NCBI GenBank assembly: GCA_020350885.1
Contig: CP070727.1
Coordinates: forward strand, 1,592,306-1,656,305
Origin: a bacterium
GTDB lineage: Bacteria > Krumholzibacteriota > Krumholzibacteriia > Krumholzibacteriales > Krumholzibacteriaceae
Length of the DNA stretch: 64,000 nt
Direction of reading: 5' to 3'
Every line of letters starts with the position of its first letter. Position 1 is the stretch's first letter. Below are positions 15,496 through 60,058 of this stretch, one piece after another. The notes beneath the pieces are model-generated. The model did no database searches. It was not told the origin of the DNA and saw only the letters and a program-made list of their open reading frames with translations. Made by a program: the position numbers and the translations under genes.

Positions 15496-15556
15496 GGGTG
15501 TCTCGAAGGTGGAAGAACACCCTGAAACGGGTTGAGCCGTCGAAGGGAGCGTTACG

Positions 15557-42477: not shown

Positions 42478-42485
42478 GATACTCC

Positions 42486-43427
42486 ATGGCGGGCAGCACA
42501 AGCTATATCGTCTCCGTCGTTATTCCACTCCTGAATGAACGGGAGAGCCTCAAGGAGCTCTTCCGACGGTTGACCGACGTGCTCGAGGCGAGCGCCGCCG
42601 GCCATGAGCTGATATTCGTCGACGACGGTTCGACCGATGGTTCCCTCGATATGCTGCGCACGCTCCGCAGCACGGATCGCAGGGTCCGGATATTGAGCTT
42701 CCAGCGCAACTACGGGAAGTCGGCCGCCCTCTCGGAAGCGTTCCGGGTCGTGAAGGGGGATATCGTCGTAACGATCGACGCCGATCTGCAGGACAATCCC
42801 GAAGAGATACCGGCCTTGATCGAGAAACTCGATACGGGGTACGATCTCGTATCCGGCTGGAAACGAAAGAGGCAGGATCCGATCAGCAAGACATTCCCGT
42901 CAAAGTTTTTTAACTTCGTCACGTCCGTCGTGAGCGGAATCAAGCTGCACGATTTCAACTGCGGTCTGAAGGTGTACCGTGCCGAGGTGGTGAAACGAAT
43001 CTGCATCTACGGTGAGTTGCACCGGTTCATACCGGTCCTGGCCGGGTGGGAGGGATTCAGGATATCGGAGAAACTGGTGGAGCACAGCCCCCGCAAATAC
43101 GGGAAGAGCAAGTACGGCGTCAACCGGTTCCTCAACGGTTTCCTGGATCTCGTGACCGTCATGTTCGTTACCAGGCGCGCCGCTTCACCGCTGCACTTCT
43201 TCGGGCGGATCGCCGCAGTCTTCTTTACCATCGGGAGTGCCATCTGCCTCTACTTCCTGATACTCTGGATCATGGGTAGAGGGCTCCACGTCCGTCCGAT
43301 AATGGTGGGCGGCCTGGTCATGATCGTCATCGCGATCCAGATCGGTTCGTTCGGTCTACTCGCCGAGCTCTTCTCCGCCAGGACGGAGCGGATCTTCACC
43401 TATCGCGAGTACCAGATCGATGACTGA
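42486..43427 (+). CDS. Polyprenyl-phosphate sugar synthase-like GT2 with membrane anchor (GtrB/ArnC-like)
   Basis: 313 aa from ATG 42486 (GGGTAGGAT upstream). GT-A core: VVIPLLNERESLKELF, FVDDGSTDGSLDML near 45, ITIDADLQDNPEEIP-type text with DADLQDNP near 100, and KLHDFNCGLKVYRAEV near 158. Two C-terminal membrane helices (AAVFFTIGSAICLYFLILW; GLVMIVIAIQIGSFGLLAEL). Matches GtrB/ArnC/DPMS-like enzymes that load a sugar onto polyprenyl phosphate at the inner face of the membrane. Ends inside the next gene's start (ATGACTGA). Confidence 0.9.
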   Translation: MAGSTSYIVSVVIPLLNERESLKELFRRLTDVLEASAAGHELIFVDDGSTDGSLDMLRTLRSTDRRVRILSFQRNYGKSAALSEAFRVVKGDIVVTIDADLQDNPEEIPALIEKLDTGYDLVSGWKRKRQDPISKTFPSKFFNFVTSVVSGIKLHDFNCGLKVYRAEVVKRICIYGELHRFIPVLAGWEGFRISEKLVEHSPRKYGKSKYGVNRFLNGFLDLVTVMFVTRRAASPLHFFGRIAAVFFTIGSAICLYFLILWIMGRGLHVRPIMVGGLVMIVIAIQIGSFGLLAELFSARTERIFTYREYQIDD

Positions 43428-44601
43428 AGAGAACGGGAAGCATGCGCTCCGCATTTGCCTCGTAGGTCCCGCCTATCCCTACCGGGGTGGCATTTCCCAT
43501 TACAATACCTCCCTGGCGCGCGAGCTTACGAGACGGCATGACGTCCATATCGTGAACTACAGCAGGCTCTATCCCGCATTCCTCTTTCCAGGGAAGACTC
43601 AGTACGACGACAGCGACAGCGCCATGCGGATAGAGTCGGCTCGTCTCATCGATTCTATGAATCCCTTCACATGGGTCAGGGCAGGATTTCATATCGTCGG
43701 CTTCCATCCCGACGCCGTGATCATGCAGTGGTGGCATCCCTATTTCGCTCCGGCCCTCTTCAAGGTCGGGCAGATCCTCAGGATGATGAGACGGGGAAAG
43801 GTCATCTTCGTCTGTCACAACGTCGTACCTCATGAGCGCTCCGTGCTCGACCGCATACTCTCGAGGCTCGCCTTCTCGGTTGCCCATGGATTCCTCGTGC
43901 AGTCCGAGGAGGACCGGGACAATCTCCTCCGGTTGCGGAGGGGGGCGCAGGTCGTAGTGCATCCACTTCCGCTCTTTGATTTCTTCAAGAGGGGTGAACT
44001 CACGAGGCAACAGGCACGTGAGCGGTTCGGAGGGGATTCTAATCCGATAATCCTCTTCTTCGGATATATCCGGCCGTACAAAGGGCTCAGGTACCTGTTG
44101 GAGGCGATGCCGCGCATTCACGAGCGCACGGGCGCCCGGCTCATGGTCGTCGGAGAGTTCTACGAGGACGATACACCGTATCGCGAACTCGTGGAAGAGT
44201 CGGGATTACAGGATACCGTAACCTTTGTGGATCGCTACGTTGGTAACGAGGAGGTCGAATCATACTTTATGGCTTGTGACCTGGTTGTTCTTCCCTACGT
44301 ATCGGCTACCCAAAGCGGTATCGTTCAGATCTCTCTCTCCTTCGATCGTCCCGTCGTCGTCACACGTGTGGGCGGATTACCGGAGGTGGTTGTGGAAGGG
44401 AAGACGGGCTTTATCGTTCCACCCGAGGATTCCCGTTCACTCGCGGGAGCGGTGATTCGGTTCTTCGAGGAAGGGTGGGGGGAGAAGATGGCGCCGTTCT
44501 TCGCAGAGGAAAAAAGGCGCTTTTCGTGGTCGGAGGTAGCTGCATCCCTCATGCGCCTCTTGGAGGCGACAGGCCGGAAGGAGACCCGTCGCATTGAATG
44601 A
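43420..44601 (+). CDS. Glycosyltransferase family 4
   Basis: 393 aa from ATG 43420, overlapping the previous gene by 8 nt. Begins LRICLVGPAYPYRGGISHYNTSLA, with the glycine loop of GT-B enzymes. Then VIFVCHNVVPHERSVLDRIL near 125, FFGYIRPYKGLRYLLEAM near 208, and CDLVVLPYVSATQSGIVQIS near 285, with VVVTRVGGLPEVV. In place of the usual E-x7-E it shows SATQSGIVQIS, as in a GT4 subgroup. Acceptor unknown. Confidence 0.9.
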   Translation: MTEENGKHALRICLVGPAYPYRGGISHYNTSLARELTRRHDVHIVNYSRLYPAFLFPGKTQYDDSDSAMRIESARLIDSMNPFTWVRAGFHIVGFHPDAVIMQWWHPYFAPALFKVGQILRMMRRGKVIFVCHNVVPHERSVLDRILSRLAFSVAHGFLVQSEEDRDNLLRLRRGAQVVVHPLPLFDFFKRGELTRQQARERFGGDSNPIILFFGYIRPYKGLRYLLEAMPRIHERTGARLMVVGEFYEDDTPYRELVEESGLQDTVTFVDRYVGNEEVESYFMACDLVVLPYVSATQSGIVQISLSFDRPVVVTRVGGLPEVVVEGKTGFIVPPEDSRSLAGAVIRFFEEGWGEKMAPFFAEEKRRFSWSEVAASLMRLLEATGRKETRRIE

Positions 44602-45481
44602 ACGGCAGCTCCACGTAATTGTCCTGAACTGGAACGGCGAGCGGGTGATCGAGGCCTGCCTGCGTTCCCTGCACGCAGTCAGGGGTATCCCGCTGCGTAT
44701 CATAGTCGTCGACAACGCCTCAACGGATGCTTCACCCGAGATCGTGAAGCGGCTCTTCCCCGAGACGGAGCTGATCAGAAACGACGGGAACCTTATGTAC
44801 GCCGAGGGGAACAACGTCGGCCTGCGCCGTGCCATGGAGGACGGCGGAGAACTGTTCTTGCTGCTCAATAACGATACGGAGGTCGATCCGGATTTCGCCG
44901 TGAGGATGTTGGAGATCTTGGAAAAACGCCCCGATGTCGGGATCGTAGGGCCCAAGATCTTCTACTACGACGATCCGAAGCGCATCTGGTACGGCGGGGG
45001 TGATTTCTATCCGTTCGTGTGGATCCCGCGGCACCGGAATATAAGGAAACTCGACGGCACTTTCGAGGAATCGGGCGGGGAGACGGGGTACGTCTCCGGA
45101 TGCGCGCTTCTCGTACGCCGTGAGGTCATCGAGGAGATCGGTCTCCTCGACCCCGGATATTTCATCTATTGCGAGGATGTAGATTTCTGTCTCAGGGCGT
45201 TCCGCGCGGGGTGGCGCTGCTTCTACGAGCCGTCGGCGAAGGTGTGGCATAAGGTCAGCTCGAGCAGCGGAGGGGGATTGACACCATTCAAGCTCGAGAA
45301 CCGGCTGGTAAGCACCTTCCGCCTCTTCGTGCGTTTTCGGCCCTTATGGTGGCGCATTTTTCTTGCCCCCGCGCACGCGGGCGGCTTCCTCGTCCTTTCG
45401 TTCGCATTGCTGGCTATGGGTCGATGGGGGCTCCTGCGGGGTGCATGGCGGGGAGCAACTCGAATACTCAAAAGTGCTTGA
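44594..45481 (+). CDS. Glycosyltransferase family 2 (rhamnosyltransferase-like)
   Basis: 295 aa from TTG 44594, overlapping the previous gene by 8 nt. VIVLNWNGERVIEACLRSL near 9, VVDNASTDASPEIV near 38, LLLNNDTEVDPDF near 94 with the DxD-like acidic pair, SGCALLVRREVIEEIGLLDPGYFIYCEDVDFCLR near 165. Ends with an amphipathic or membrane segment. Similar proteins transfer rhamnose or other deoxysugars in O-antigen synthesis. An 81-nt gap follows. Confidence 0.9.
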   Translation: MNERQLHVIVLNWNGERVIEACLRSLHAVRGIPLRIIVVDNASTDASPEIVKRLFPETELIRNDGNLMYAEGNNVGLRRAMEDGGELFLLLNNDTEVDPDFAVRMLEILEKRPDVGIVGPKIFYYDDPKRIWYGGGDFYPFVWIPRHRNIRKLDGTFEESGGETGYVSGCALLVRREVIEEIGLLDPGYFIYCEDVDFCLRAFRAGWRCFYEPSAKVWHKVSSSSGGGLTPFKLENRLVSTFRLFVRFRPLWWRIFLAPAHAGGFLVLSFALLAMGRWGLLRGAWRGATRILKSA

Positions 45482-45562: not shown

Positions 45563-48034
45563 TTGAAGGAGAAGGATAGGCCCGCCGCAGGGGCACACAA
45601 GGGGATCGATCTCATCGATCGACTCGAAGAGACACAGCCGTGGAGAAGGGGACTTATCGTTTTCCTGACCCTCGCAGTCATACTGTGCATCCTCATGCCC
45701 GAGCTCATCTTTCAGAACAGGATCTTCCTCGTTCCCGACTCGAAGGCGCCGCTCAGCTTCGCATCCGTCGGCAGGGAGACCCTCGAGTCGGGCACATATC
45801 CGCTCTGGAATCCCTATCTCTTCTGCGGGATGCCGAGCTATCCGAGCCTCGCCTATACACCGTACGTATACCCGGTCTCGTACATCACCCATGTCCTGCA
45901 TTCCTATATGCGGTTTCCCGAGATGACATGGCTGCTCGTCCACTACCTGATCGCCGGTATCGGCGTCTACCTGCTGCTGCGCTCCCTGGAGGTGCGTGCC
46001 ATACTGGCGCTGCTCGCCGGCGCCGTCTTCATGATCATGCCGAACTTCGTGGCCGCGGGGGCCAACGGTCATGGATCGCAGGCGTCGGCGATCGCATACA
46101 TGCCGCTGGCCATTCTCTTCGCCCGCAACATCTTCCGGGGCTATCATCGAATTCCCATGACGGCCTTCCTGGCGATTATACTCGGATTCCAGATGCTCCG
46201 GGGGCACGTGCAGATATCGTATTACACATTTCTGATCATCGCGCTGCTCTTTATCGTCGAATCGATCCATCTGCTCCGGCGCGGCCAGCGGCGGGCTATC
46301 GGTATCAATCTCGTTTTTGCGGCAATCGCCTTCGCGCTTGCCGTCGGCATCGCTTCGGTACTCATCTTCCCCGTGCGTGGATACGCATCGCTCTCCATCC
46401 GGGGGGGTGACGGTGGGGGAGGGCTCGATTACGGCTACGCCACGGGATGGAGCCTCCATCCCAAGGAGATGCTGACGTTCCTCTTCGCCTGGTCATTCGG
46501 CTTCGGAAAGAAGACCTACTGGGGGGAGATGCCGTTCACCGATTATCCGAACTACATCGGAGCGGTAACCGCTTTCTTTGCGGTCCTTGCCGTGTTCATC
46601 GTCCGAAATCGGTGGAAATGGTTCTTTATAGTTGCGGCCGTGCTCTCGACGCTGATCAGCTTCGGCCGCTTCTTCCCGGTACTCTACGATCCAATGTTCA
46701 GGTTGCTGCCGTTTTTCAACAAATTCAGGGTACCGGTCATGATACTTATCGTCCAGCAACTTTCTCTTGTTGTGCTCATGGCCATGGGGATCGAATCACT
46801 CGTCGCCCGACATCGTGACGGCACCCTCCCGAAACAGCTATCCACAGATTCGATGAAGTGGTTGACGATCGCCCTCGCCGTCGTCTTCATCATTGTGCTG
46901 ATCTCCGGAGGCAGCATAGAGAACGGAGTCGCCACAAGTCCGGCGGTGGCGGGGAAGGTGAGCGGTGAGATGGTACCCATCGCTGCCGATGCTTTCGCAA
47001 AGGATTTGATAAAGACCGTGGTCATGTTCGGTGCTATCTCCCTCGCCGTCTTTTTGTTCGTTGCGGGCAAGCTCCGTCACGGTAATCTCATGATCGTTCT
47101 CTTCGTCGTTTCCCTTGTCGATCTTCTCGTCGTGGACCGCCTGGTCGTACATCCTGAGAGCGGATGGAAAAACGACGGATACAGGATCATACGCAGGATC
47201 GAGGATCGCGAGGATTATCTCAAGCCGGATCCGATTGTAGATTTCTTGAAACAGGACAGCTCATACTTTAGAATATTCCCTGCGCCAGCCGCCCCGCTTG
47301 CAAATTGGTCGCACAGTACGCCACCATTCAGTGACAACCGCTACATGGTGTTCGGCATCTTTTCGATGGGTGGATATCATGCGGCGAAACTGAGGAACTA
47401 CCAGGATGTCATGGACCGCATGTTCACCGTCTTCAAACAGGGAAGTGTTCCGATCTCCATTCTCAACATGCTGAATGCGAAGTATATCGTCTCTCTTGTT
47501 CCACTTTTCCGTGAGAGCTCTTACTTTCCAACCGTGTGGCAGCAGGGGAGGGTATATATCTACGAGAATAGGGGAGTCCTTCCCCGAGTCTTCTTCGTGT
47601 CCGCCTACCGGGTACTCTCCCCGGATAGGATCCTTCACACCCTGGGGGAACGGGACTTCGATCCGTCCGCAGAGGTTCTCCTCGAACGGGAGCCGGCGGT
47701 AGCCCCTGTATCCGCAGAGGGGAGTCACGCCGAGATCAGTGACTACCGCTTGAATTCGTTCACGGTTAAGGCCCACGTCGAAGAACCGTGTATCATGGTC
47801 GTTAGTGAAATCGCATACCCCGACTGGCAGGTCAGTGTCGATGGTGAGCGGGGGGAGGTCCTGACGGCGAACTACTGTCTCCGGGCCGTCCCCCTCGAGG
47901 CAGGTGACCACGAAATCGGTTTTGTGTTCGCGTCCGGGATGCTCAGGCGTTCACTCATCGTATCGATCATCGCGTTTGCCGTCGCCGCCGCCATGCCGAT
48001 CGCGTCTCGGCTGTTGGCACGTGAAAAGGAGTAA
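45563..48034 (+). CDS. YfhO family membrane protein (GT-C-like)
   Basis: 823 aa from TTG 45563; GGGAGG upstream. Twelve or so membrane helices fill residues 30-510, followed by a periplasmic domain (VEEPCIMVVSEIAYPDWQVSVDG) and a final helix. Family landmarks: LWNPYLFCGMPSYPSLAY near 76, SQASAIAYMPLAILFARN, AYPDWQ near 755. YfhO of Bacillus is needed to glycosylate lipoteichoic acid with GlcNAc from an undecaprenyl-phosphate donor. Here, beside polyprenol-phosphate sugar synthases, a role in transferring a lipid-linked sugar outside the membrane is likely. Confidence 0.87.
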   Translation: MKEKDRPAAGAHKGIDLIDRLEETQPWRRGLIVFLTLAVILCILMPELIFQNRIFLVPDSKAPLSFASVGRETLESGTYPLWNPYLFCGMPSYPSLAYTPYVYPVSYITHVLHSYMRFPEMTWLLVHYLIAGIGVYLLLRSLEVRAILALLAGAVFMIMPNFVAAGANGHGSQASAIAYMPLAILFARNIFRGYHRIPMTAFLAIILGFQMLRGHVQISYYTFLIIALLFIVESIHLLRRGQRRAIGINLVFAAIAFALAVGIASVLIFPVRGYASLSIRGGDGGGGLDYGYATGWSLHPKEMLTFLFAWSFGFGKKTYWGEMPFTDYPNYIGAVTAFFAVLAVFIVRNRWKWFFIVAAVLSTLISFGRFFPVLYDPMFRLLPFFNKFRVPVMILIVQQLSLVVLMAMGIESLVARHRDGTLPKQLSTDSMKWLTIALAVVFIIVLISGGSIENGVATSPAVAGKVSGEMVPIAADAFAKDLIKTVVMFGAISLAVFLFVAGKLRHGNLMIVLFVVSLVDLLVVDRLVVHPESGWKNDGYRIIRRIEDREDYLKPDPIVDFLKQDSSYFRIFPAPAAPLANWSHSTPPFSDNRYMVFGIFSMGGYHAAKLRNYQDVMDRMFTVFKQGSVPISILNMLNAKYIVSLVPLFRESSYFPTVWQQGRVYIYENRGVLPRVFFVSAYRVLSPDRILHTLGERDFDPSAEVLLEREPAVAPVSAEGSHAEISDYRLNSFTVKAHVEEPCIMVVSEIAYPDWQVSVDGERGEVLTANYCLRAVPLEAGDHEIGFVFASGMLRRSLIVSIIAFAVAAAMPIASRLLAREKE

Positions 48035-48039
48035 TCCGT

Positions 48040-48756
48040 TTGGAAGCCCTGATCATCATTCCAACTTATAACGAGCGGGAAAATATCGAAAATATCATTC
48101 GGGCGGTACTGAATGTATCGGACGGAGTCGGTGTACTCGTCGTTGACGACAACTCGCCGGACGGGACCGGACAGATCGTGGATGCAATGGCGTCCGCCGA
48201 CGGTCGGGTGCATGTGATCCACCGTGAGGGAAAGCTTGGACTGGGCTCGGCATACATCAGAGGGTTCAAGTGGGCACTGGCGAATACCGAAGCCCGCTAC
48301 GTATTTGAGATGGATGCCGATTTCTCACACGATCCCGAGTCGATACCCGACTTTCTGGAATCGATCAAGAACCACGATCTCGTGATCGGCTCCCGCTATC
48401 TCCATGGGGTCACGGTTGTGAACTGGCCTCTCAGCAGATTGATCTTGAGCTACGGCGCGAATATCTACACAAGGATCGTGACGGGATTGCCGCTCAAAGA
48501 TTCCACGGGGGGATTCAAATGCTTTCGGCGTGAGGTGCTCGAGCAGCTCCCGCTCGATACGATACGGAGTGACGGCTACTCATTCCAGATCGAAGTGAAT
48601 TTTCTCTGCTGGAAGAAAGGCTTTCGCATAACGGAGATACCGATCCTCTTCGTTGATAGGCGTGTCGGAATATCGAAGATGTCGAGGAAGATCGTCTGGG
48701 AGGCTGCCCGCATGGTTTGGCGTCTCCGCTTCATGCACCCAAGCAGATGGAAGTAA
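48040..48756 (+). CDS. Polyprenol-phosphate mannose synthase (Dpm1-like)
   Basis: 238 aa from TTG 48040, with AAAAGGAG upstream. MEALIIIPTYNERENIENII at the start; VVDDNSPDGTGQIVDAM near 36, HREGKLGLGSAYIRGFKWA near 60, EMDADFSHDPESIP near 89 with the metal-binding DAD, and LKDSTGGFKCFRREVLEQ near 149. No membrane helix, as in the soluble bacterial Ppm1 catalytic domain. It moves mannose from GDP-mannose to polyprenyl phosphate. The GDP-mannose genes are at 14122-16627. Confidence 0.92.
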   Translation: MEALIIIPTYNERENIENIIRAVLNVSDGVGVLVVDDNSPDGTGQIVDAMASADGRVHVIHREGKLGLGSAYIRGFKWALANTEARYVFEMDADFSHDPESIPDFLESIKNHDLVIGSRYLHGVTVVNWPLSRLILSYGANIYTRIVTGLPLKDSTGGFKCFRREVLEQLPLDTIRSDGYSFQIEVNFLCWKKGFRITEIPILFVDRRVGISKMSRKIVWEAARMVWRLRFMHPSRWK

Positions 48757-48777: not shown

Positions 48778-50856
48778 ATGAATCTCTCGATCATTATCGT
48801 CACTCATAACAGTTCGTCCCCCGTTGTGGAATGTCTGGCCTCTCTCCGGGAACATCCGCCTTCGAGGGCTTTCGAGACAATCATTATCGATAATGCGAGC
48901 AGCGACGGCACGCCGCGGATTGTCGAGGAACGGTTTCCCGAGGTCCGTGTGATTGCGAACACGGATAATCGAGGCTACTCGCGCGGCGTCAATCAGGGAA
49001 TCGAGCAATCCAGCGGGACATTCATCCTGATCCTCAATCCCGACATAATACTCACCGACGGCGCGGTCGACCGGCTGATCGAGTTGATGGAGAAGAGGCC
49101 GGATGCAGGTATCACGGCATCGAAGCTGATCTACCCTGACGGCAGGCTTCAGTACTCATGCAGGACGTTTTATAACCTGAAAGTACTGTTGCTTCGCCGA
49201 ACCTTTCTCGGCAGGCTGTTCCCGAACGCCAAATCCCTCCGCCGGCATCTCATGAAAGACTATGATCACGAACAAGTCCGCGTTGTGGATTGGGTACTCG
49301 GCGCGTGCATGATGGTCCGACGTGAGGCGATCGAACGGGTCGGGAAGATGGATGAACGGTTTTTCCTGTACTTTGAGGACATCGACTGGTGTTTTAGAAT
49401 GAAAAACCAAGGTTGGTCGGTATACTATCTTCCGGATTCCGTCATGATACACAGCTATGAACGCTCGAGCGCACGATCAGTGCTCAACAGACCGTTCATG
49501 ATCCATATGCTCAGCATGCTCAGGTACTACGAGAAATGGAATCAGTTCTTTTACTTCTTCAGGAGGCACCGCACGGCGCTCAAGGCGACCGCTTTGGTGC
49601 TTTCGGACATCATTGCCATCAACGTAGGTTTCTTCGCGGCCTATTACCTCAGGGACCTGCTCCAGCCGTTCTTCGTGAACAGGCTCTATCCCATCGATTG
49701 GTATCGTTCGTTCATCATCTTTTCCAATTTCATCTACTTCCTGACACTTCTGTTCAGCGGTCTGTACCGTGTCCGACGCGAAACACCTAGGGTCGAGGGA
49801 TTTCTCCGGCTATCCCGCGCTGTCTTCATCGGGCTTGTGATCCTCATGGCATCCACGTATCTCACGAGGGTGCGCATCTTCTCGAGAGCAGTCCTGATAG
49901 GGCATGCGGGCCTCACCGTTCTGGCCGTAACGTGTTTCCGCCAGATCATCCGGCGTCTGCACCGGGAGCTGGTCAAGGCGAGCTTCGACCTGAAACGGGT
50001 ACTCCTCGTGGGAACGGGCGGCGAGGTTCAGAGCCTTGCCCGGAGGCTCTCGGAATCGCCGGAGATGGGATTCGATATTGTGGGAAGCATCAGTGATGCT
50101 CCCGATTCTCTCGGAACCGTACATGACCTGGTCGATGTCGTCGAACGCTTCAAGGTACAAGAGGTAATTCTCTTTCCCTCATCGCTCGGGGAGGAGCAGA
50201 TCCTTCCGGTATTGATACAACTCAAGGAGCGTATGATACAGATCCGGATCGTTTCCCCCCTTGCACGCATCATCGGGACCAACGTCCGTATCGAGGAACT
50301 GGAGGGATTGCATCTCTTCTCTGTAGAGCGGGGTGCATTTCTTCTTGCAAGGCGGTGTATCAAGCGACTCGGAGACATTCTCATTGCAGTTCTATCGCTG
50401 CCGTTTGTGTTATTACTCTGTGCCGTGTATTTTATGTATGGTACGATAACGGGACAGGTGAGATTCTACGGGGAGATACGCCTGGGGAAAGGCGGAAGGA
50501 GGTTTGCATGGCCGAGAGCTATTACAGGGAGGGGTAGGGAGGCTTCCGATTGCGTCAAGATCAGGCTTCTGTTCCAGCTGCTTGCAGGTACCTTGAGCTT
50601 GGTCGGACCTCCCGCGCTCCATCCATCATGGGATGTCAGCGATGCAGCAAGCGAGCTGCTGGAGACAAGGCCGGGGATTACAGGGCGGTGGCGTATCATG
50701 ATGTTTGGTGATCACTCCACCGCTCTGAGCGACGAGGCGCTCGAGCTGCACCAGTGGTCGCTGACAAGAGAGATGATGGTTCTGATTCAATCCATACCGG
50801 CGATATTGTCAGGGCGATATCCGACTTGGTACTTCGAGAACGGGAGGGACACGTGA
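48778..50856 (+). CDS. GT2 glycosyltransferase fused to a WcaJ-type membrane/Rossmann module and a decayed phosphoglycosyltransferase domain
   Basis: 692 aa. Residues 1-230 are a rhamnosyltransferase-type GT2 (IIIVTHNSSSPVVECL, IDNASSDGTPRIV, LILNPDIILTDGAV, FFLYFEDIDWCFRM). Residues 268-390 are four membrane helices and 405-510 a Rossmann domain (RVLLVGTGGEVQSLARRL), as in WcaJ/WbaP-type proteins. Residues 527-690 resemble the bacterial sugar transferase domain: KRLGDILIAVLSLPFVLL with the re-entrant helix, and LSLVGPPALHP. But the FRSM segment is replaced by FAWPRAITG, and the DELPQLWNVL stretch with its catalytic Asp-Glu reads CVKIRLLFQLL. So this part is probably not catalytic, while the GT2 part looks intact. 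The stop overlaps the start of the PorZ-like gene. Confidence 0.85.
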   Translation: MNLSIIIVTHNSSSPVVECLASLREHPPSRAFETIIIDNASSDGTPRIVEERFPEVRVIANTDNRGYSRGVNQGIEQSSGTFILILNPDIILTDGAVDRLIELMEKRPDAGITASKLIYPDGRLQYSCRTFYNLKVLLLRRTFLGRLFPNAKSLRRHLMKDYDHEQVRVVDWVLGACMMVRREAIERVGKMDERFFLYFEDIDWCFRMKNQGWSVYYLPDSVMIHSYERSSARSVLNRPFMIHMLSMLRYYEKWNQFFYFFRRHRTALKATALVLSDIIAINVGFFAAYYLRDLLQPFFVNRLYPIDWYRSFIIFSNFIYFLTLLFSGLYRVRRETPRVEGFLRLSRAVFIGLVILMASTYLTRVRIFSRAVLIGHAGLTVLAVTCFRQIIRRLHRELVKASFDLKRVLLVGTGGEVQSLARRLSESPEMGFDIVGSISDAPDSLGTVHDLVDVVERFKVQEVILFPSSLGEEQILPVLIQLKERMIQIRIVSPLARIIGTNVRIEELEGLHLFSVERGAFLLARRCIKRLGDILIAVLSLPFVLLLCAVYFMYGTITGQVRFYGEIRLGKGGRRFAWPRAITGRGREASDCVKIRLLFQLLAGTLSLVGPPALHPSWDVSDAASELLETRPGITGRWRIMMFGDHSTALSDEALELHQWSLTREMMVLIQSIPAILSGRYPTWYFENGRDT

Positions 50857-53195
50857 AACGGCTCGGATTACTACTCCTGGTGACACTGCTTGTTCCCGGT
50901 TTTGCGGCGGGGGCTGATGATCAATGGACCGTATTTCTCAATGCGAGCTCTGTGAACAGGATCATACCCTCGGGTGATACGCTCTGGTGCGCGACGAACG
51001 GCGGCATCCTGCTCTTCGATCTGAACGATTCGACCTTTACCCAGTATATGGACGGGATCGGCCTTCGATCGAGCCACATTGCAGCCATTGCAGTAGATGA
51101 TAACCAGAGCTTGTGGATCGGCCACGTATCGAGCGGCATCGACCGCATCGATCACATCGACTCGGAGCCGTTCGTCAAGCATTACGGTGCCGCAATCGAT
51201 CTCATCCAGAGCGACAGCATAACCTCGATCGTTGCGGCGGGTGACGATATCTACTACGGAGGCAGCAACGGAGTAGCGAAGTTCTTCGACAATCTCCCGT
51301 CCCCCGAGACGGGCCTGACGAGCGAGCTCGAGGGAACCTTCGTGTACGATCTGCTCCTGGCCGGCGATTCGCTCTGGATCGCATCCGAAGACGGAGCCGG
51401 GCTCTTCGAGCGGAGCACCTTGCAGTTCACTCTGTACTCGATCGGGGGCGTCAACTCGCTCACGAGACACGAGGGCCGGATCTACGCTGCGACCACGGGC
51501 GGTGTACAGCGGTTCGTGCCGGAGGGGGATCCGAGCTGGGAGCAGGTGGGGACGATCGTTGGTGTGCCGCTCTCGATATCCTCGGGAGGGGGCGTGCTCG
51601 CCTGTGTAACCGCCGGTGTTGCGTACCGATGGGATGGGTCGCAGTGGGACGATATTGCAGGCAACAGAGATACGCCTGGAAGCCTGAAGTACGTCATCAG
51701 CCGTACCTACTATATCTGGACCTCATACGATATCTTCACCACGATCGCCGTGGATGTCCGGGGTACTCCATGGGTCGGCGGCATCCGGGAGGTTGAAAAC
51801 AGGGGAGCGTACCTGAGTGGTTATATCGGTGGAGAGTGGGTGAACAAGGCCCCGACTCAGCTCACGCAAAACGAGGTGGTCGAGCTCGGTCTCGATCCGC
51901 AGAGGGGGCTCTGGATGAGCTCCCTGCGCTACGGTGTCAGCTACCTTTCGAACGGGGGCACGTGGTCAACGTACACAAGGTATCGGGGAGACGTCGGCGA
52001 CGATGCACTCTCGTACTTCGCCTATAATCTGGCGCTCCTCTACGATTCGCAGGGCTATCTGTGGGTGAACGTACCCAGTGCAGACCTCGATCGAATCGAG
52101 GTGAATGATCCGCTGAGCAAAACCGACGATGTCTGGGAACATTACGGACTCGCAGAAGGCACGCTCACCTCGAACCGCTTCGTAAAGGCCAAGGAGGATC
52201 CGGTTGGCAACCGCTGGTTTCTCTCCGATGATGACGGGTTCGAGAACGGTATATGGGGTATAAATATCGTGAACGCCGCCGGTACCGAGTGGCTCACGGT
52301 GAATCCCGATTCGGTGCCGGAGATGGAAGGCGGCAGCGTATTCGACTGCGCCTTCGGTCCGGATGGGAGGGTGTATCTCGGCCTGCGTGGGTACGGAGTA
52401 CAGGTTTGGTTTCCGGGCTACTACGACTGGGATAACCTCAGCGATCTCGACGACGACGTATGGTTCACGATCATCGATTCCGACCAGCTGACCAGCACCA
52501 TCATACATTCGATCGCGCTCGATGAGGATGGTAGCGTATGGTTGGGCACCGCCGGCGGTCTCGTACGATACAGTAGCGGTGTCATAGATTCTCTGACGAA
52601 GAAGATATTTACCGGTCAGGAGGGTCTTGTCGGCGCAATCGTCTACGATCTCGAGTTCGATGGCGAGGGGAACCTCTGGGTGGCGACCGACGGGGGGCTT
52701 GATAAGATCAACGAAGAGGGCGAAATCGTTGAAACGTACACAACGGCAGACTACTGGAGCAGCGGTCTGGAGTTTCTCTATCCGAATACGATCATATCGC
52801 CCCTGCCTTCTCCGATCTGCAAGGCGCTCGAATACGACGTGTACGAAAATGTGATATGGATAGGGACCGACAACGGACTGGCCCGAATGGATATATCGCC
52901 CCCGTCCGGAGAAGAGGCCCCGCTCTCGGGGCTGATACTCTATCCAAATCCGATATACCCCTCACGGGGAGACGATGCCCTGCGAATCTGGGGCATCACG
53001 GTCCCCGTGAGCATACGGGTTTACACCCTTGAGGGTGAACTGGTACATAACGTGATGGGAGTGATGGAAGGTAGTGTGGCCTGGGATTTGCTCACCCTGA
53101 ACGGGTACATCGCACAGTCGGGTATCTATATCGTGGTTGTAAGGTCGTTCGACGGTCGGTTCTCGGAAACGAGAAAGATCGCACTCATCAGGTGA
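50853..53195 (+). CDS. PorZ-like beta-propeller protein with T9SS/FlgD-type C-terminal domain
   Basis: 780 aa from GTG 50853, overlapping the previous stop; GGGAGG upstream. Signal peptide LLLLVTLLVPGFAAGA. Residues 25-690 consist of repeated propeller blades: DTLWCATNGGILLFD, SLWIGHVSSGIDRID, DSLWIASEDGAGLFE, RIYAATTGGVQRFV, SVWLGTAGGLVRY, NLWVATDGGLDKI, IWIGTDNGLARMD. The end is a sorting-type domain: LYPNPIYPSRG near 705, WDLLTLNGYIAQSGIYIVVV and the final KIALIR. Two propellers plus a C-terminal domain at this length is the layout of PorZ, which in Porphyromonas brings anionic LPS to the type IX sortase PorU. A periplasmic sensor propeller is the other option. Confidence 0.78.
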   Translation: MKRLGLLLLVTLLVPGFAAGADDQWTVFLNASSVNRIIPSGDTLWCATNGGILLFDLNDSTFTQYMDGIGLRSSHIAAIAVDDNQSLWIGHVSSGIDRIDHIDSEPFVKHYGAAIDLIQSDSITSIVAAGDDIYYGGSNGVAKFFDNLPSPETGLTSELEGTFVYDLLLAGDSLWIASEDGAGLFERSTLQFTLYSIGGVNSLTRHEGRIYAATTGGVQRFVPEGDPSWEQVGTIVGVPLSISSGGGVLACVTAGVAYRWDGSQWDDIAGNRDTPGSLKYVISRTYYIWTSYDIFTTIAVDVRGTPWVGGIREVENRGAYLSGYIGGEWVNKAPTQLTQNEVVELGLDPQRGLWMSSLRYGVSYLSNGGTWSTYTRYRGDVGDDALSYFAYNLALLYDSQGYLWVNVPSADLDRIEVNDPLSKTDDVWEHYGLAEGTLTSNRFVKAKEDPVGNRWFLSDDDGFENGIWGINIVNAAGTEWLTVNPDSVPEMEGGSVFDCAFGPDGRVYLGLRGYGVQVWFPGYYDWDNLSDLDDDVWFTIIDSDQLTSTIIHSIALDEDGSVWLGTAGGLVRYSSGVIDSLTKKIFTGQEGLVGAIVYDLEFDGEGNLWVATDGGLDKINEEGEIVETYTTADYWSSGLEFLYPNTIISPLPSPICKALEYDVYENVIWIGTDNGLARMDISPPSGEEAPLSGLILYPNPIYPSRGDDALRIWGITVPVSIRVYTLEGELVHNVMGVMEGSVAWDLLTLNGYIAQSGIYIVVVRSFDGRFSETRKIALIR

Positions 53196-53308
53196 TCGCA
53201 CAGTCACCGCCCGGAGAGCGGCGTTGCGGGTGGATGCACATTCGTACGGTTGCAGGGTTCCCACCGAGCGCATCGCCTTCTCTTGACCACATGCGATGAG
53301 GGGGATTG

Positions 53309-54766
53309 GTGAAACGTGATGATCGCAAGAAGATTCTCATTGTCGGCGCCGGGGAAGCGGCGCGCATGGTGGCGTCTGAGATACGCGGTGACAAGGAGTT
53401 TGGTGCCTCGGTAGAGGGTTATCTCGATGACAATCCCGAATTGGTCGGCACGGAAATAGATACCGTCCGGGTCCTGGGCAGGACCGACGCGCTCGAGCTG
53501 ATCGTTCAAGAGCGGGGGATCGATGAGATAATCATCGCCATCCCAACGGCACCCGGGCGGTTCGTTCGGCGAATTGTGAAACGCTGCAAACAGGCCGATG
53601 TGCCGTTCAAGATCGTTCCGGGCGTTATGGAGATTATCCGGGGTGAGGTCAAGATCGAACAGATCCGCGATGTGCGGGTCGAAGATCTGCTCGGGAGGGA
53701 GACGGTCGAATTCGACATTGAATCCGCGAAGGAGGTGCTCTCGGGCAAGCGGATTCTCATTACGGGGGCGGGCGGATCGATCGGCAGCGAGCTCTGCCGG
53801 CAGCTGATTCGTGTCGCGCCGGCAGAATTGGTACTGCTTGGACGGGGAGAAAACAGGATCTTCGAGATAGAGGAGGATCTGCGTGCGACACACCCCTTCT
53901 TCACTCCCCGTTCGGTGATATGCGACCTCCGTAACCGCCGGCGGGTTACGCGGCTCTTCAAGCAGTTCGAGCCACAGATTATCTTCCATACGGCCGCCCA
54001 CAAGCATGTCCACTACATGGAGCGGGACCCGGAAGAGGCGGTCCTCAACAATATCGAGGGGAGCCTCAACACGATCGCGGCCGCAGAATCGGTCAGGGCG
54101 GAGAGATTCATCTTTATCTCAACCGATAAGGCCGCTAGTCCCGGTGGCGTGATGGGTGCGACGAAGCGGATCATCGAGCTCTATCTCCGCAGCCTTCACG
54201 GGAAGAGCGATGTTCGCTACATTACGGTGCGGTTCGGGAACGTCATAGGCAGTAAGGGGAGTGTGGTACCGCTCTTCCTCAAGCAGATCGAGCGTGGTGG
54301 GCCCGTGACCGTGAGCAGCCCGAAGGCGACCCGTTACTTCATGACTGTCAAGGAGGCATCCCTACTCGTCATACGTGCGGCGGTCATAGGAAAGGGTGGA
54401 GAGGTATTCATTCTCGATATGGGTGAAGCTATAAATATTCTCGAAATAGCACAGGATATCATACTGCTGACGGGTCACGAATCGCAGACTGAGATCCCAA
54501 TCGTGATAACCGGCCTGCGCGAGGGAGAGAGGCTTCACGAGGAACTCATCGGTGATGACGAGAGACTCATCCCGCTCGACGAGGAAAAGATACTGCTTGC
54601 CGAGAGTTCGTTGCCCATTCCCAGGGACCTCGACGAGAGAATGCACGAGATGATAGCGGCGGCCAATGAAGGCGATCCGTCTCGAATCATCGAGCTGTTC
54701 GCTGCCGTCGTTCCTGGATTCGGCGCATCGCACGGTGTAAGCTCCCGGGGAGTGGAGGACAGGTGA
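53309..54766 (+). CDS. Soluble CapD/FlaA1-type nucleotide-sugar 4,6-dehydratase
   Basis: 485 aa from GTG 53309 (GATGAGGGGG upstream; TTG 53306 also possible). N-terminal Rossmann domain (KILIVGAGEAARMVASEI, residues 8-125), then the extended-SDR domain: ILITGAGGSIGSELCRQL near 150-167, HTAAHKHVHYMERDPEEAV near 228, and FISTDKAASPGGVMGATKR near 268, which carries the Asp-Lys and Met-x3-Lys active-site residues of the FlaA1/PglF type. It lacks the four N-terminal membrane helices of PglF/CapD (about 600 aa). It would convert UDP-HexNAc to a 4-keto-6-deoxy sugar. The 113-nt gap before it holds no clear terminator. Confidence 0.92.
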   Translation: MKRDDRKKILIVGAGEAARMVASEIRGDKEFGASVEGYLDDNPELVGTEIDTVRVLGRTDALELIVQERGIDEIIIAIPTAPGRFVRRIVKRCKQADVPFKIVPGVMEIIRGEVKIEQIRDVRVEDLLGRETVEFDIESAKEVLSGKRILITGAGGSIGSELCRQLIRVAPAELVLLGRGENRIFEIEEDLRATHPFFTPRSVICDLRNRRRVTRLFKQFEPQIIFHTAAHKHVHYMERDPEEAVLNNIEGSLNTIAAAESVRAERFIFISTDKAASPGGVMGATKRIIELYLRSLHGKSDVRYITVRFGNVIGSKGSVVPLFLKQIERGGPVTVSSPKATRYFMTVKEASLLVIRAAVIGKGGEVFILDMGEAINILEIAQDIILLTGHESQTEIPIVITGLREGERLHEELIGDDERLIPLDEEKILLAESSLPIPRDLDERMHEMIAAANEGDPSRIIELFAAVVPGFGASHGVSSRGVEDR

Positions 54767-55713
54767 AGGTAGCGTGCGAAAAGGATCTACGCCCGGGAGA
54801 GATCACACGTTTCATCAATCGCATTTCACATGCGACTTTCTTTCATACTCCGACCTGGATGGAGGCGCTCACAGCCTCCTTTTCCCACTTCCGACCATGC
54901 TGGGTGACATCGCGCGAGGGGACGGATCTCGTCGGCATCATGCCGTGTATCGAGATCAGCCGGGGTCCTTTTATATCGCTGTGGTCGCTGCCGTTCGGCA
55001 CATACGGGAATCCGCTCGCACGGGACCCCGCCATCTATGATGCGATCCTTACCGCTTTCTTCGATAGAGTACGCAGCCGCTCGTGCCTGGAAGGTTGCGC
55101 CTACCTCTTTGATGCAACGGGGGACCGGAAGCTCCCCGCTGACGTGGATGTCACCAACCGGGAATGCCGCATTGTTCGTCTCGAAGGAACCTTCGAAGAT
55201 TACTGGAGCACGAAGATAAGCAAGAAAAGGAGGCAGGGGTGCAACAGGGCGGAGAAGGCCGGCATCGAGGTCAGGGTGCTGCTTGATGATAAAGAGGTCG
55301 AGGAATTCTACCGCATCTACAGGCTCGGCTCGAAAGGGTGGGGAGGAGTGCATCCTTATCCCTTCAGGCTGTTCATGGAGCTCTTCAGACGGCGCGATGA
55401 AGGCGTACTGATACTCGGGGGTTTCAAGGAGGGCAAACTACTCGGAGGTCATATCAACCTCTACTTCGGGGGGATGGCGCATGGCTGGCAGGCCGGGGTA
55501 TCGGCGGCGTCACATCAGTACGATCTGGGCTCATTGCTCGTCATCCATGCGGTGAAGGAGGCATTCAGAAGGGGGATGCAAGTCTACAATCTCGGCAGCA
55601 GCGGGCCGCATAGCGGTCTGTTGTTCTTCAAAGAGTCGCTCGGCGGGGAGGAGTACAACTACCTGGCGGCCAGCGTGCGGAAACGCTGGTGGGGGTGGCT
55701 GAGGAGACGGTAA
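54763..55713 (+). CDS. FemAB-like / GNAT-fold acyltransferase
   Basis: 316 aa from GTG 54763, overlapping the capD stop by 4 nt. Features of the FemAB-like acetyltransferase group (Acetyltransf_6): ATFFHTPTWMEAL near 25, TKISKKRRQGCNRAEKAGIEV near 150-170, FYRIYRLGSKGWGG, LLGGHINLYFGGMAHGWQAG near 227 and GSLLVIHAVKEAFRRGMQVYNLGSSG near 255-280. Relatives act in exosortase-linked exopolysaccharide loci and add aminoacyl or acyl groups. Here it may modify a sugar of the glycan; substrate unknown. Confidence 0.85.
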   Translation: MKVACEKDLRPGEITRFINRISHATFFHTPTWMEALTASFSHFRPCWVTSREGTDLVGIMPCIEISRGPFISLWSLPFGTYGNPLARDPAIYDAILTAFFDRVRSRSCLEGCAYLFDATGDRKLPADVDVTNRECRIVRLEGTFEDYWSTKISKKRRQGCNRAEKAGIEVRVLLDDKEVEEFYRIYRLGSKGWGGVHPYPFRLFMELFRRRDEGVLILGGFKEGKLLGGHINLYFGGMAHGWQAGVSAASHQYDLGSLLVIHAVKEAFRRGMQVYNLGSSGPHSGLLFFKESLGGEEYNYLAASVRKRWWGWLRRR

Positions 55714-57236
55714 TGGAGCGGAGATCGAAGATCGCCGAAAATACACTCTCACTCACCGCAAGCGGGGCCGGGAGCGCCGTTCTCGCCATCATACAGCTCT
55801 CCATACTGAGCAGATCGCTCGAGGGCGATCTCTTCGGTCTCTTCGTCGCACTCAGGGGATTTTCCCTTCTGCTCGGCACAGTGGTATTGATCGGCCTCCC
55901 GCAGGTACTGGTACGTTTCCTGCCGTCGTATCAGAGCAGGGGAATGCGGGATCGTGCACTGATTCTCTTCACGGTATCAACGGGGCTCGTTCTATTGCTC
56001 GGTTACCTGATTCACATCGGCTCACCGGTCTGGGCTGAGTGGATGCCTGAGGATGTCGGGGGGCTGGTCGCATTCCCGAGAGTGACCCTCTGGGTCACAC
56101 TCGCCTCCGTCATGCTGGCGATGAAGATGCTTCTGTACGGGGGATTCAACGGCCTTCGCGAGATGCGGATGCAGATGGTGCTCGAGCTCCTCTACCATGT
56201 ACTGCTTACCGTCTTTATATTCGCCGCACGCCACAGGCTCGGGGTAACATTGCTCTTCCAGATCATCTGTGTACTGAACACCTTTGTATTTCTCATGGGA
56301 CTGCCGGTATTTGTCCGTCTCGCCAGGCGCCTGATCCCGGCAGGCGGGGCCGGCGGGGACAGCGGCCTCATTCTCCCGCCGCTCGTTCCGTACTGGCTCG
56401 GTTCTATTCTTCTGAGTTTCGTGTCTCTCGCCTTCACCGATGTTGACAGGTACGTCATGAGTGCGGTTCTGCCGCTCTCGGCCATCTCGATCTTCCATGT
56501 CGCTTCGAGAATCAACAATCTCCTACGTCGTTTTCTCGGGATACCAGTGATCGCCGCACAACCGGAGATCACGAGGATCTACGAAGAAGGGCGGTGGGAG
56601 GAGCTCGCAGGGAAGATCGGTCTCTTCACGAAGGGAACGATAATCGCCTCCCTGTTCGTATCGGCTCTCATGACCATTACCGGCAGAGATATAATAACCG
56701 TGCTTTCGGGGGACCGCTACATTTCAGGGTACCGGGTGCTCCTGGTGCTGCTGGTAACGGTTCCGATTGCGGCGGTCATCGCGCCGCTCCTGGCAACGAT
56801 GCGGTCGTTACACTTCATGAAATGGGCGGTGCTGTGCGATTTCATTTGGATGGCCGTCTATTTCGGCACCTTCTTCTTCCTCGTCTCGTGGTGGGGTGTG
56901 ATCGGTATGGCGGTGGCCCAGGTGACAGCATCCTGCTGTCAATTGCTGGCCGCCGTGCTACTCGCCAGACGGGAAGGTTTCTTCGGGGGGGTGGGCACGA
57001 ACCTCGGGAGGGTACTCCTCTCTCTCGTCTTCCTGGTACCGACGGGTGTCGTTTTAACGAGGCAGTTCGGACTACCGGCATCGGCTGCGTGTCTTCTGCT
57101 ATCTCCCATAATCTGCAAGTATCTCCTCAAGTGGCTCTCGGTCTTCGGGGAGGAAGAGAAGGAGCGGATCGTGGAGCTCGTTCCGGTCTCGTTCGGAAAA
57201 CGCACTACCTCATGGCTTCTCTCATTGGGGGCATGA
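55713..57236 (+). CDS. Wzx-type polysaccharide flippase (MOP superfamily)
   Basis: 507 aa from ATG 55713, which shares a base with the preceding TAA; GAGGAGAC upstream. Twelve to fourteen membrane helices. MOP text: LSRSLEGDLFGLFVALRGFSLLLGT near 25-50, LPQVLVRFLPSY, FTDVDRYVMSAVLPLSAISIFHVA near 245, and a second-half VLSGDRYISGYRVLLVLLV near 325. It would flip lipid-linked repeat units across the inner membrane. It pairs in function with the O-antigen ligase/polymerase-like protein in locus 1. Confidence 0.92.
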   Translation: MERRSKIAENTLSLTASGAGSAVLAIIQLSILSRSLEGDLFGLFVALRGFSLLLGTVVLIGLPQVLVRFLPSYQSRGMRDRALILFTVSTGLVLLLGYLIHIGSPVWAEWMPEDVGGLVAFPRVTLWVTLASVMLAMKMLLYGGFNGLREMRMQMVLELLYHVLLTVFIFAARHRLGVTLLFQIICVLNTFVFLMGLPVFVRLARRLIPAGGAGGDSGLILPPLVPYWLGSILLSFVSLAFTDVDRYVMSAVLPLSAISIFHVASRINNLLRRFLGIPVIAAQPEITRIYEEGRWEELAGKIGLFTKGTIIASLFVSALMTITGRDIITVLSGDRYISGYRVLLVLLVTVPIAAVIAPLLATMRSLHFMKWAVLCDFIWMAVYFGTFFFLVSWWGVIGMAVAQVTASCCQLLAAVLLARREGFFGGVGTNLGRVLLSLVFLVPTGVVLTRQFGLPASAACLLLSPIICKYLLKWLSVFGEEEKERIVELVPVSFGKRTTSWLLSLGA

Positions 57237-58526
57237 TTGAGAGAGAAGAAGATTCTTATGATGATCAATTTCTTTCCGCCCGCCGGGGGCGGGGGCGTGT
57301 ACCGTCCGCTCGGATTCGTGAAATACCTGGTCCGGCTCGGGTGGAAGGTGACCGTCATCACCCCCAGGCCGGGCGAGTACTGGATCAGCGATCCAGATCT
57401 CGCCGGCACCGTGCCCGGGGAGGTGACAATCGTGAGGACGCCGTCGCTGTCCGGGTTTCGCATGTTATCACTCGTACGGGGGCGGCGGGCCGGTAGGGGG
57501 TCGGCACGCTCATCGAGCCGGTTCGAATGGCTCCGGCGTTTGAGCGAGTTCTGCATGCTTCCCGACACCTATGTGGGGTGGGTCCCCTTTGCCCGGCGTG
57601 CGGCCATGAGGCTCTGTTCGGAACAACGTTTCGATGTCCTGTACTCGACCAGCCCTCCCGACAGCACACATCTGGCTGCTTGGAGCGTTGCACGGCGCCG
57701 CTCGCTGCCGTGGCTGGCCGATTGCCGCGATCCGTGGATTTCGCTCTACCTCCGAGATCCCCCGACCGCACTGCACCGGCGCCTGCATGAGCGGATGGAA
57801 AGCCGCCTTTCCGATGCGGACCGGATCCTGGTGACAACGGCGTGGCAAGAGGAGATGATGCGCCGGCGCTTCCCCTCCTGCCGCCTGGAGCGGATCGAAA
57901 ACGGGTACGACGAGGACGATTTCGAAGGGACCGATGAGCTCCGCCCCCCCCAGAAGCCCTTTACGATCATGCACTGTGGTATGTTGACACTCGGGCGATC
58001 GTCCCGGCCCGTCCTTGAGGGGCTCCGCGAGGTCTTCCGGAGGCAGCCCGGGGTGCGTGATTCGATACGGGTGCTCTTCCTCGGGGCGCGTGAGTCCGAG
58101 AACGAGGCATGGGTGCGACGGCTCGGTCTCGATGATGTGGCCGTCTTCATGGACAATGTAGCGCACCATGAATGTGTAAAGCTCGAGAGGAAGAGCCATG
58201 TGCTGCTTCTCGTGAAGCATGACGACGAACGGTACCGTGGTCTCGTGCCTGGCAAGGTATACGAATACATCGGTGCCCGCCGGCCCATCCTCGCCGTTGT
58301 GCCGGAGGGTGAGGCGGCCGATATTGTCACGAGGCATAACCGCGGAGAGGTAGCGTGGATCGGTGATCCCGGCAGGGTAGCAGATGCGATCCTGAAGATG
58401 TTCCGGTTGTACCGGGAGGGCGCCTTCGAGAGTGCATACTTCCTGGATCCCCTTCCCCACTACTCGAGACGTACCGAGACGGAGCGCCTGGCTGAGATAC
58501 TCGATGAATTACTGGAGGAAGGATGA
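57237..58526 (+). CDS. Glycosyltransferase, GT4-like GT-B fold
   Basis: 429 aa from TTG 57237, which directly follows the preceding TGA. ILMMINFFPPAGGGGVYRPLGFVKYL at the start, FDVLYSTSPPDSTHLAAW near 133, WLADCRDPWISLYL near 160, then a C-terminal half with TTAWQEEMMRRRFP, FTIMHCGMLTLGRS near 240 and PGKVYEYIGARRPILAVVPEG near 340, with the Glu of the EYIGA motif facing the nucleotide sugar. This resembles WfgS/PelF-like and capsular transferases. Acceptor unknown. Confidence 0.87.
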   Translation: MREKKILMMINFFPPAGGGGVYRPLGFVKYLVRLGWKVTVITPRPGEYWISDPDLAGTVPGEVTIVRTPSLSGFRMLSLVRGRRAGRGSARSSSRFEWLRRLSEFCMLPDTYVGWVPFARRAAMRLCSEQRFDVLYSTSPPDSTHLAAWSVARRRSLPWLADCRDPWISLYLRDPPTALHRRLHERMESRLSDADRILVTTAWQEEMMRRRFPSCRLERIENGYDEDDFEGTDELRPPQKPFTIMHCGMLTLGRSSRPVLEGLREVFRRQPGVRDSIRVLFLGARESENEAWVRRLGLDDVAVFMDNVAHHECVKLERKSHVLLLVKHDDERYRGLVPGKVYEYIGARRPILAVVPEGEAADIVTRHNRGEVAWIGDPGRVADAILKMFRLYREGAFESAYFLDPLPHYSRRTETERLAEILDELLEEG

Positions 58527-60058
58527 GTTCGAGAGACCTGTTTACAGTCTTGGCGTGCACGGCACTTTTCGCCCTGCTGCTCTATCCACTCGCCGGGAGT
58601 CTTGTTGACGATACCTACATACACCTGCAGTACGCCCGAAATCTCGCCGAGGACGGAGATCTCTCCTTTAACCGCGGCCATCCGACATACGGCGCAACAA
58701 GCCCGCTCTGGGTGGCGCTTCTGTCTATAATATATAGGATGGGCGGTGAGATATTCCTCTGGTGTCAGATCCTCTCCTGGCTCTTCGGCATACTGGCGGT
58801 CCGGCTCGCCTACCGAATGGCGCTGGAGTTGAGCGGTACGCGGCTCGTAGCCGCCGCGGCCGGATTGATGCTCGCCTCGGAGGCATGGTTCGTCCGGTGG
58901 AGCGCCGTCGGTATGGAGACATCATTCGCCGTCTTCATGATCCTCGCAACCATCTACGTAGCACTATCCGCACACCGATCCGCCATCCGCTCGCTCCTCT
59001 TCGGAGCGATGCTTTTCCTCGCCATCCTCTCGAGACCCGAGGCACTGCTTCTCGTCCCATTGGCCGTCTTCGTGAGCATCCGCTTTGGGCCTCCTACGCC
59101 GGGCCGTCGTATGGAATGGCTTATGATCGTTCTCCCTCTTTTCGCCGTATGGTTATTGGTAATAAAGAGTCATACGGGTGCCTTCATGCCGCTTACGGCC
59201 GGGGCGAAACAGGGGAGACTCGTCTTCACGGCGGCCGTCGTGCGGCGCGCCCTCGTGCCGATCAAGATCATGGGGATCACAGACGTCCTGCCGTGGTGTG
59301 CCCTGCTTGTCGGTGCATGTGCCGGGCTCATCAAACACCGATCGATTTTCTACTTCTTCGAATCCGGACACGAAACGAACGGGGCCCGCAGGGCTGGAAT
59401 CCTCCTTGCGATTCTCTGGGTCATCGCCCTTCCCGTAGTCTATGTGCTATTCGATTTCCAGGTGCTCTCGCGGTACCTGCTTCCCGTGATTCCACCCGTA
59501 ATCGTTCTCGGAACTACCGCACTGTGGGGCCTGGTCCGTCACACCGGGAAACCGGTACGCAGGGCGGTGATCGTAGCCTTCCTCGTTGTTGCCGTGGCCC
59601 AGAACGTGATCGTCTACACCGGGATCGTAGTTCCCTCGACCCGTGCCTTCTCGCGCGGCATGAAGGAGGTACTGGTGGGGATGGGGGAGTGGCTCTTCGA
59701 GAACGCTGACGATACGGCCGTCGTGGCGACGCCGGATATCGGCGCCATCGGTTACGTCTCACAGAGAGAGATCCTCGACCTCGGCGGTCTGGTTACCCCC
59801 GAGATAAACAGGATGCGCCAGGATACGCCCGTGGAAACAATCATCGTGGAGGGATTGTATCTCAGGTTTCAACCCGACTACCTCGTCGACCGTCACGAGA
59901 CAGCGGCTCGGTTCGGCGGAATGATCATCCGGGGCGTGCGGTTCGAGCCGGTCATGCAGGGAACCGTGCCGAATCTGGGAATACGGAAACCCTACCCCGT
60001 TGTATACACCCTGTACCGGCTCATACCCGGGGCCGAAGGGGCGGAGGGATCCAGGTGA
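58523..60058 (+). CDS. GT-C-fold membrane glycosyltransferase
   Basis: 511 aa from ATG 58523, overlapping the previous gene by 4 nt (ATGA). An N-terminal helix is followed by SLVDDTYIHLQYARNLAEDG near 27, with the paired Asp of the first periplasmic loop of GT-C enzymes, then GATSPLWVALLS. About ten membrane helices to residue 380, then a short periplasmic part (VVATPDIGAIGYVSQREILDLGGLV). Enzymes of this type (ArnT/PMT-like) use polyprenyl-phosphate sugars. With the Dpm1-like enzyme in the same locus, a mannosyl or similar donor is plausible. Confidence 0.85.
   Translation: MSSRDLFTVLACTALFALLLYPLAGSLVDDTYIHLQYARNLAEDGDLSFNRGHPTYGATSPLWVALLSIIYRMGGEIFLWCQILSWLFGILAVRLAYRMALELSGTRLVAAAAGLMLASEAWFVRWSAVGMETSFAVFMILATIYVALSAHRSAIRSLLFGAMLFLAILSRPEALLLVPLAVFVSIRFGPPTPGRRMEWLMIVLPLFAVWLLVIKSHTGAFMPLTAGAKQGRLVFTAAVVRRALVPIKIMGITDVLPWCALLVGACAGLIKHRSIFYFFESGHETNGARRAGILLAILWVIALPVVYVLFDFQVLSRYLLPVIPPVIVLGTTALWGLVRHTGKPVRRAVIVAFLVVAVAQNVIVYTGIVVPSTRAFSRGMKEVLVGMGEWLFENADDTAVVATPDIGAIGYVSQREILDLGGLVTPEINRMRQDTPVETIIVEGLYLRFQPDYLVDRHETAARFGGMIIRGVRFEPVMQGTVPNLGIRKPYPVVYTLYRLIPGAEGAEGSR

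Follow-up and report, generated by a model that had tools for sequence, protein, structure and literature searches.

The gene studied here encodes a divergent PorZ outside the Bacteroidota, set in a glycan operon that is found class-wide and within a partial type IX system. It lies in a window of 64,000 nucleotides, the whole stretch of DNA analysed, from a member of the Krumholzibacteriia. The close relatives of the protein belong to Candidatus Krumholzibacteriota and not to Bacteroidota; some members of the class are labelled Latescibacterota, and NCBI treats Krumholzibacteriota as a separate phylum. At a probability of roughly 70%, we think that this PorZ presents to PorU, within an attachment complex, the glycan that its own operon makes, and that secreted cargo is anchored by that glycan.

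Results

The porZ gene and its product

The initial annotation had described a secreted protein of 780 aa with a signal peptide, about two propellers and a type A-like C-terminal domain, whose gene overlaps a GT2 fusion gene and precedes capD, and this description stood when the open reading frame, Pfam, TIGR04183 and an AlphaFold2 model were consulted (Table 1). There is a four-base overlap between the GTG start of porZ, which the purine-rich GGGAGGGACAC immediately precedes, and the stop of the fusion gene upstream; capD starts 110 bp downstream here, overlapping or abutting porZ in many relatives. The predicted structure is all-beta (mean pLDDT 86.2, pTM 0.79), the disorder at its N-terminus being expected for a signal peptide. 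Reg_prop is the strongest match in a Pfam scan of the whole protein (7.8e-15), and the same scan found neither a Y_Y_Y domain nor a histidine kinase. Residues 696-770 score 22.0 bits with TIGR04183, one bit short of the cut-off (23), and 17 of the 18 orthologues match this model. Most of the class has full-length orthologues, and their gene neighbourhood is conserved, so the gene is not a product of chance.

Table 1. Features of the porZ locus, with positions in the window.
Feature	Position	Strand	Basis
TMEM260-like O-mannosyltransferase gene and NAD-dependent epimerase gene	38957..42477	+	Pfam
Three glycosyltransferase genes (GT2, GT4, GT2)	42438..45481	+	44594-45481 taken as GT2 from sequence and synteny
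YfhO-like membrane protein	45563..48034	+	PF09586; kept in relatives
GT2, polyprenyl-phosphate-mannose-synthase type (DPM-like)	48040..48756	+	PF00535 1.7e-34; synteny; type from sequence
GT2 + CoA_binding_3 + Bac_transf-like fusion	48778..50856	+	Pfam; direct upstream neighbour of porZ in 27/27 evaluable loci
PorZ-like protein, 780 aa	50853..53195	+	NF052228 112 bits; hhalign 1.1e-38; Foldseek 5m11 first
Signal peptide, approximate end	50853..50915	+	KRLGLLLLVTLLVPGFAAGA sequence; residues 1-22 disordered in model
SPLP motif, 48 residues before YPNP	52797..52808	+	in Bacteroidota PorZ too; not in three sensor propellers
Type A-like C-terminal sorting domain (YPNP ... SGIYIVVV ... KIALIR)	52932..53192	+	TIGR04183
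CapD-type nucleotide-sugar dehydratase/epimerase	53306..54766	+	PF02719 4.3e-99; downstream neighbour in 25/29 evaluable loci
GNAT/FemAB-like transferase and Wzx-type flippase	54763..57236	+	PF13480, PF01943
Glycosyltransferase-like protein, membrane protein with no Pfam match, methyltransferase	57237..60858	+	conserved downstream; Pfam scan covered the last two

Comparison with PorZ and with sensor propellers

The NF052228 model of PorZ scores the protein at 112.2 bits (E 2.4e-32), the highest value among the 18 class orthologues, and misses its cut-off of 260. Within its own genome the gene is the best match to this model, with 76 bits for the best stretch against about 41 for the next. When a profile of the 18 class orthologues was aligned by hhalign with one of 13 Bacteroidota PorZ sequences, every one above the curated NF052228 cut-off, the two were collinear from columns 1-777 to 1-762 (E 1.1e-38, score 319), through the signal peptide, both propellers and the C-terminal domain. 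Against sensors the same class profile gave E 8.9e-20 and a score of 166, in an alignment that ends before the C-terminal domain; with three sequences only in the sensor profile, this comparison is uneven and is supportive rather than balanced. Foldseek ranked the crystal structure of PorZ, 5m11, first (E 1.3e-31, TM 0.58/0.60), whereas sensors reached TM 0.33-0.36. An SPL-type motif lies 47-50 residues before YPNP/FPNP in 18/18 class sequences and 13/13 Bacteroidota PorZ, and in 0/3 sensors. Per-blade HMMER comparison with the PDB gave the opposite order, 170 bits for the sensor 4a2l and 93 for PorZ 5m11, because each blade matches repeatedly and the sensor score is a sum of many short matches; none of these sensor matches covers the C-terminal domain. 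The N-terminal propeller model PF21544 gave 0.016 for this protein and 1.3e-4 at best within its family.

The match to PorZ in domain order and length, on which the initial annotation had relied, is thus borne out by the full-length hhalign alignment and by fold. Of the comparison by HMM that it proposed, the profile-profile part succeeded and the curated threshold was missed; where it asked whether sensor domains would fit the propellers better, PorZ wins by profile-profile and fold comparison, and per-blade HMMER favours the sensors. The protein is a divergent PorZ by homology, fold and motif, and is not an NF052228 member by the curated threshold. Because of its divergence from known PorZ, ligand-binding residues are not transferable. 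Two loci, from Sphingobacterium and Paraflavisolibacter (L090, L091), were set aside as sensor-type propeller genes and not PorZ, the genomes having no PorZ above the cut-off.

The glycan locus and its conservation

Synteny was counted by hand from tblastn results at 30 loci from eight families, 27 with upstream sequence and 29 evaluable downstream, after open reading frame calling had concealed some genes behind antisense frames. The order DPM - fusion - PorZ - CapD is kept across families of the class. The Bac_transf-like C-terminal part of the fusion has no D-E catalytic motif (DELPQ-type) of the stand-alone enzymes, and neither do the fusions of relatives in which the region could be located; this domain is probably not an active phosphoglycosyltransferase. 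Elsewhere in the window, a phosphomannomutase (ManB)-like and a ManC-like gene stand side by side (14197-16627), which suggests a supply of GDP-mannose.

Among 56 Bacteroidota PorZ loci, 14 have PorZ beside genes that match the fusion, adjacent or one small gene away, and 11 have it adjoining recO; the three Bacteroidota fusions that were scanned are likewise made up of GT2, CoA_binding_3 and Bac_transf parts. Gene order differs, the fusion being upstream of PorZ in the class and downstream in these Bacteroidota. In a quickly computed, midpoint-rooted tree, with SH-aLRT as its sole measure of support and one row on a long branch, the class sequences separate from Bacteroidota PorZ with SH-aLRT 100, and the 14 fusion-adjacent sequences group together as a single clade inside Bacteroidota (SH-aLRT 98). 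This fully supported separation and single nested clade do not favour an exchange of the PorZ-fusion pair between the class and Bacteroidota; the pairing would then be either ancestral and lost elsewhere, or of two origins.

Type IX components elsewhere in the genome

The suggestion of a type IX-like system outside the Bacteroidota has held up, with the search for its parts succeeding for SprA, PorU and the PorV family and yielding no counterparts of PorK/L/M/N. SprA scores 523.5 bits, summed, with TIGR04189 (cut-off 200) and is backed by a phmmer match to the solved SprA structure 6h3i (1.8e-38). PorU (C1 1721111-1724413) reaches 563 bits (cut-off 420), and its His868/Cys902 align with His657/Cys690, which we take to be the catalytic pair of the reference PorU, so that the pair is kept. 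PorV directly follows PorU, and further barrels of the PorV/PorQ family are present, the best gene for PorQ scoring 102 of 220 bits. Other proteins with the same kind of C-terminal domain, for which a search had been proposed, are abundant, with 131 PF18962 matches at E <= 0.001 in this genome. The SprA, PorU and PorV models match in 58/58 relatives, above cut-off in 53 (SprA), 42 (PorU) and 58 (PorV); the weak PorU-model matches may be other C25 peptidases.

Several further genes were noted. LptF/LptG permease genes lie divergently beside sprA across the class (in this genome at C1 3264.6-3274.0 kb, L093; also L099, L102, L104, L106 and L108), as would suit an outer membrane that contains LPS. 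A second C25-family peptidase (C1 3293572-3297510; L094:5573-9511) has both a C25 propeptide and a sorting domain at its C-terminus, and is apparently a secreted cargo. The gene directly after PorV encodes an M6-peptidase-like protein that also bears such a sorting domain (L092:12617-15862); it is similar, at a score under the cut-off, to the T9SS-dependent inactivated M6 family of NCBI.

The motor

Models of GldM and GldL matched in 0/30 genomes and that of GldN in 0/10, while GldK found sub-threshold relatives only, none much above 100 bits (cut-off 350), scores comparable to other below-cut-off matches within the control genomes. The positive controls, successful in two Bacteroidota genomes, covered GldM, GldN and GldK only, and a very divergent motor might escape all of these models. 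Motor disruption in Flavobacterium leaves substrates trapped on the translocon (PMC10994853), and if the class is truly without GldL/M, energy must have another source.

At about 424.7-429.7 kb of C1 in this genome (L096:2734-7680) we observed a cluster of a PorV-family barrel, a GWxTD protein, ExbB and two ExbD, to which the versions in relatives from several families (L116, L118-L121, L123, L125, L128, L129) add TonB, a TonB-dependent receptor and a C-terminal-signal protein. This TonB-ExbB-ExbD-ExbD cluster may simply serve its own receptor, and to tie it to secretion is conjecture. We offer as a speculative and rather doubtful proposal that the Krumholzibacteriota might operate a type IX translocon and sortase with no rotary PorL/M-PorK/N motor, powered otherwise, for example by this class-conserved unit, and with cargo anchored by the glycan of porZ's operon.

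Discussion

In P. gingivalis, PorZ binds anionic LPS (A-LPS) by way of a mannan that is phosphorylated and branched, and passes this LPS on to PorU (PMC8545088). Let us assume that the present protein acts in an analogous way. Its signal peptide would then export it to the periplasm, and SprA would carry it through the outer membrane using its C-terminal domain, after which it would stay on the cell surface, forming an attachment complex together with PorU and barrels of the PorV/PorQ type. There, the propellers might bind the lipid-linked polysaccharide made by PorZ's own operon and present it to PorU, which would remove the C-terminal domain of the cargo and join the cargo to the glycan. Taking the operon that contains porZ as the source of the anchor glycan would be the simplest transfer of the P. 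gingivalis model; alternatively, the locus could produce a capsule or an exopolysaccharide that does not serve as an anchor. The low score with the PorZ model, the lack of matches to the ring and motor proteins on which Bacteroidota depend, and the distance of PorZ from glycan genes in most Bacteroidota loci examined also count against our reading.

The protein might instead be an ordinary cargo with a C-terminal signal, a lectin-like surface propeller that holds or organises the operon's polysaccharide, for example in capsule attachment, and that has no role with the sortase. We regard this as unlikely. A fixed place in a polysaccharide locus, the company of about 130 other proteins with such C-terminal domains and a PorZ-model score below the cut-off would all suit a cargo of this kind, whereas collinearity with PorZ over the whole length, SPL motif included, and the rank of best PorZ-model match in its own genome would not, and an orthologue kept across a class that has PorU and PorV fits a part of the system better than it fits a variable cargo. 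Somewhat less probable still, in our estimate, is that the protein is a true PorZ whose anchor glycan comes from genes at another place in the genome, its neighbourhood reflecting joint regulation of envelope genes only; PorZ does stand away from glycan genes in most of the Bacteroidota loci examined, but conservation of the neighbourhood across families of the class and recurrence of the pairing in a separate Bacteroidota clade argue for a closer connection. A sensor-type propeller that gained a C-terminal sorting domain and serves to monitor or regulate the locus, a reading raised by the per-blade bits and the strength of the Reg_prop match, is very improbable and was dropped on the fold comparison, the profile-profile comparison (uneven, given the three-sequence sensor profile) and the SPL motif: hybrid two-component Reg_prop ectodomains such as BT4663 (4a2l) share the two propellers of Reg_prop blades, whereas the class protein has no Y_Y_Y or kinase domain and has an additional C-terminal sorting domain, and the sensors have neither that domain nor the motif.

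A divergent PorZ presenting its operon's glycan to PorU is thus the reading that we prefer, and it bears both resemblances to and departures from the known systems. With P. gingivalis PorZ (5m11; NF052228) the class protein shares the signal peptide, two beta-propellers, the type A-like C-terminal domain, the SPL motif near YPNP, a length of about 760-780 aa and the presence of PorU and PorV in the same genome; unlike it, the class protein, at ~17-18% identity and below the curated cut-off, sits in a glycan operon of a host outside the Bacteroidota. As in the T9SS attachment complex of PorU, PorV, PorQ and PorZ, there is a PorU above cut-off with its catalytic pair, a PorV beside it, the PorZ-like protein and more PorV/PorQ barrels, whereas no single gene is assigned as PorQ and the complex is here a putative one. 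Relative to the Bacteroidota type IX system as a whole, SprA above cut-off and the many C-terminal signals are held in common, whereas counterparts of GldM, GldN and GldK were not found here with models that had matched in two Bacteroidota genomes, and GldL was not found either.

Type IX secretion has mostly been described as Bacteroidota-specific (PMC4793230, PMC7463736), and one review places it in the wider FCB superphylum (PMC11205867). Our literature search found no mention of it together with Krumholzibacteriota and nothing specific on its occurrence outside the Bacteroidota. If our reading is true, a class of an uncultured phylum that has SprA, PorU, PorV and PorZ, and no recognisable motor, would show the older core parts of this secretion system. 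The neighbourhood of porZ, with a similar pairing in one Bacteroidota clade, would at the same time indicate which genes make the anchor glycan.
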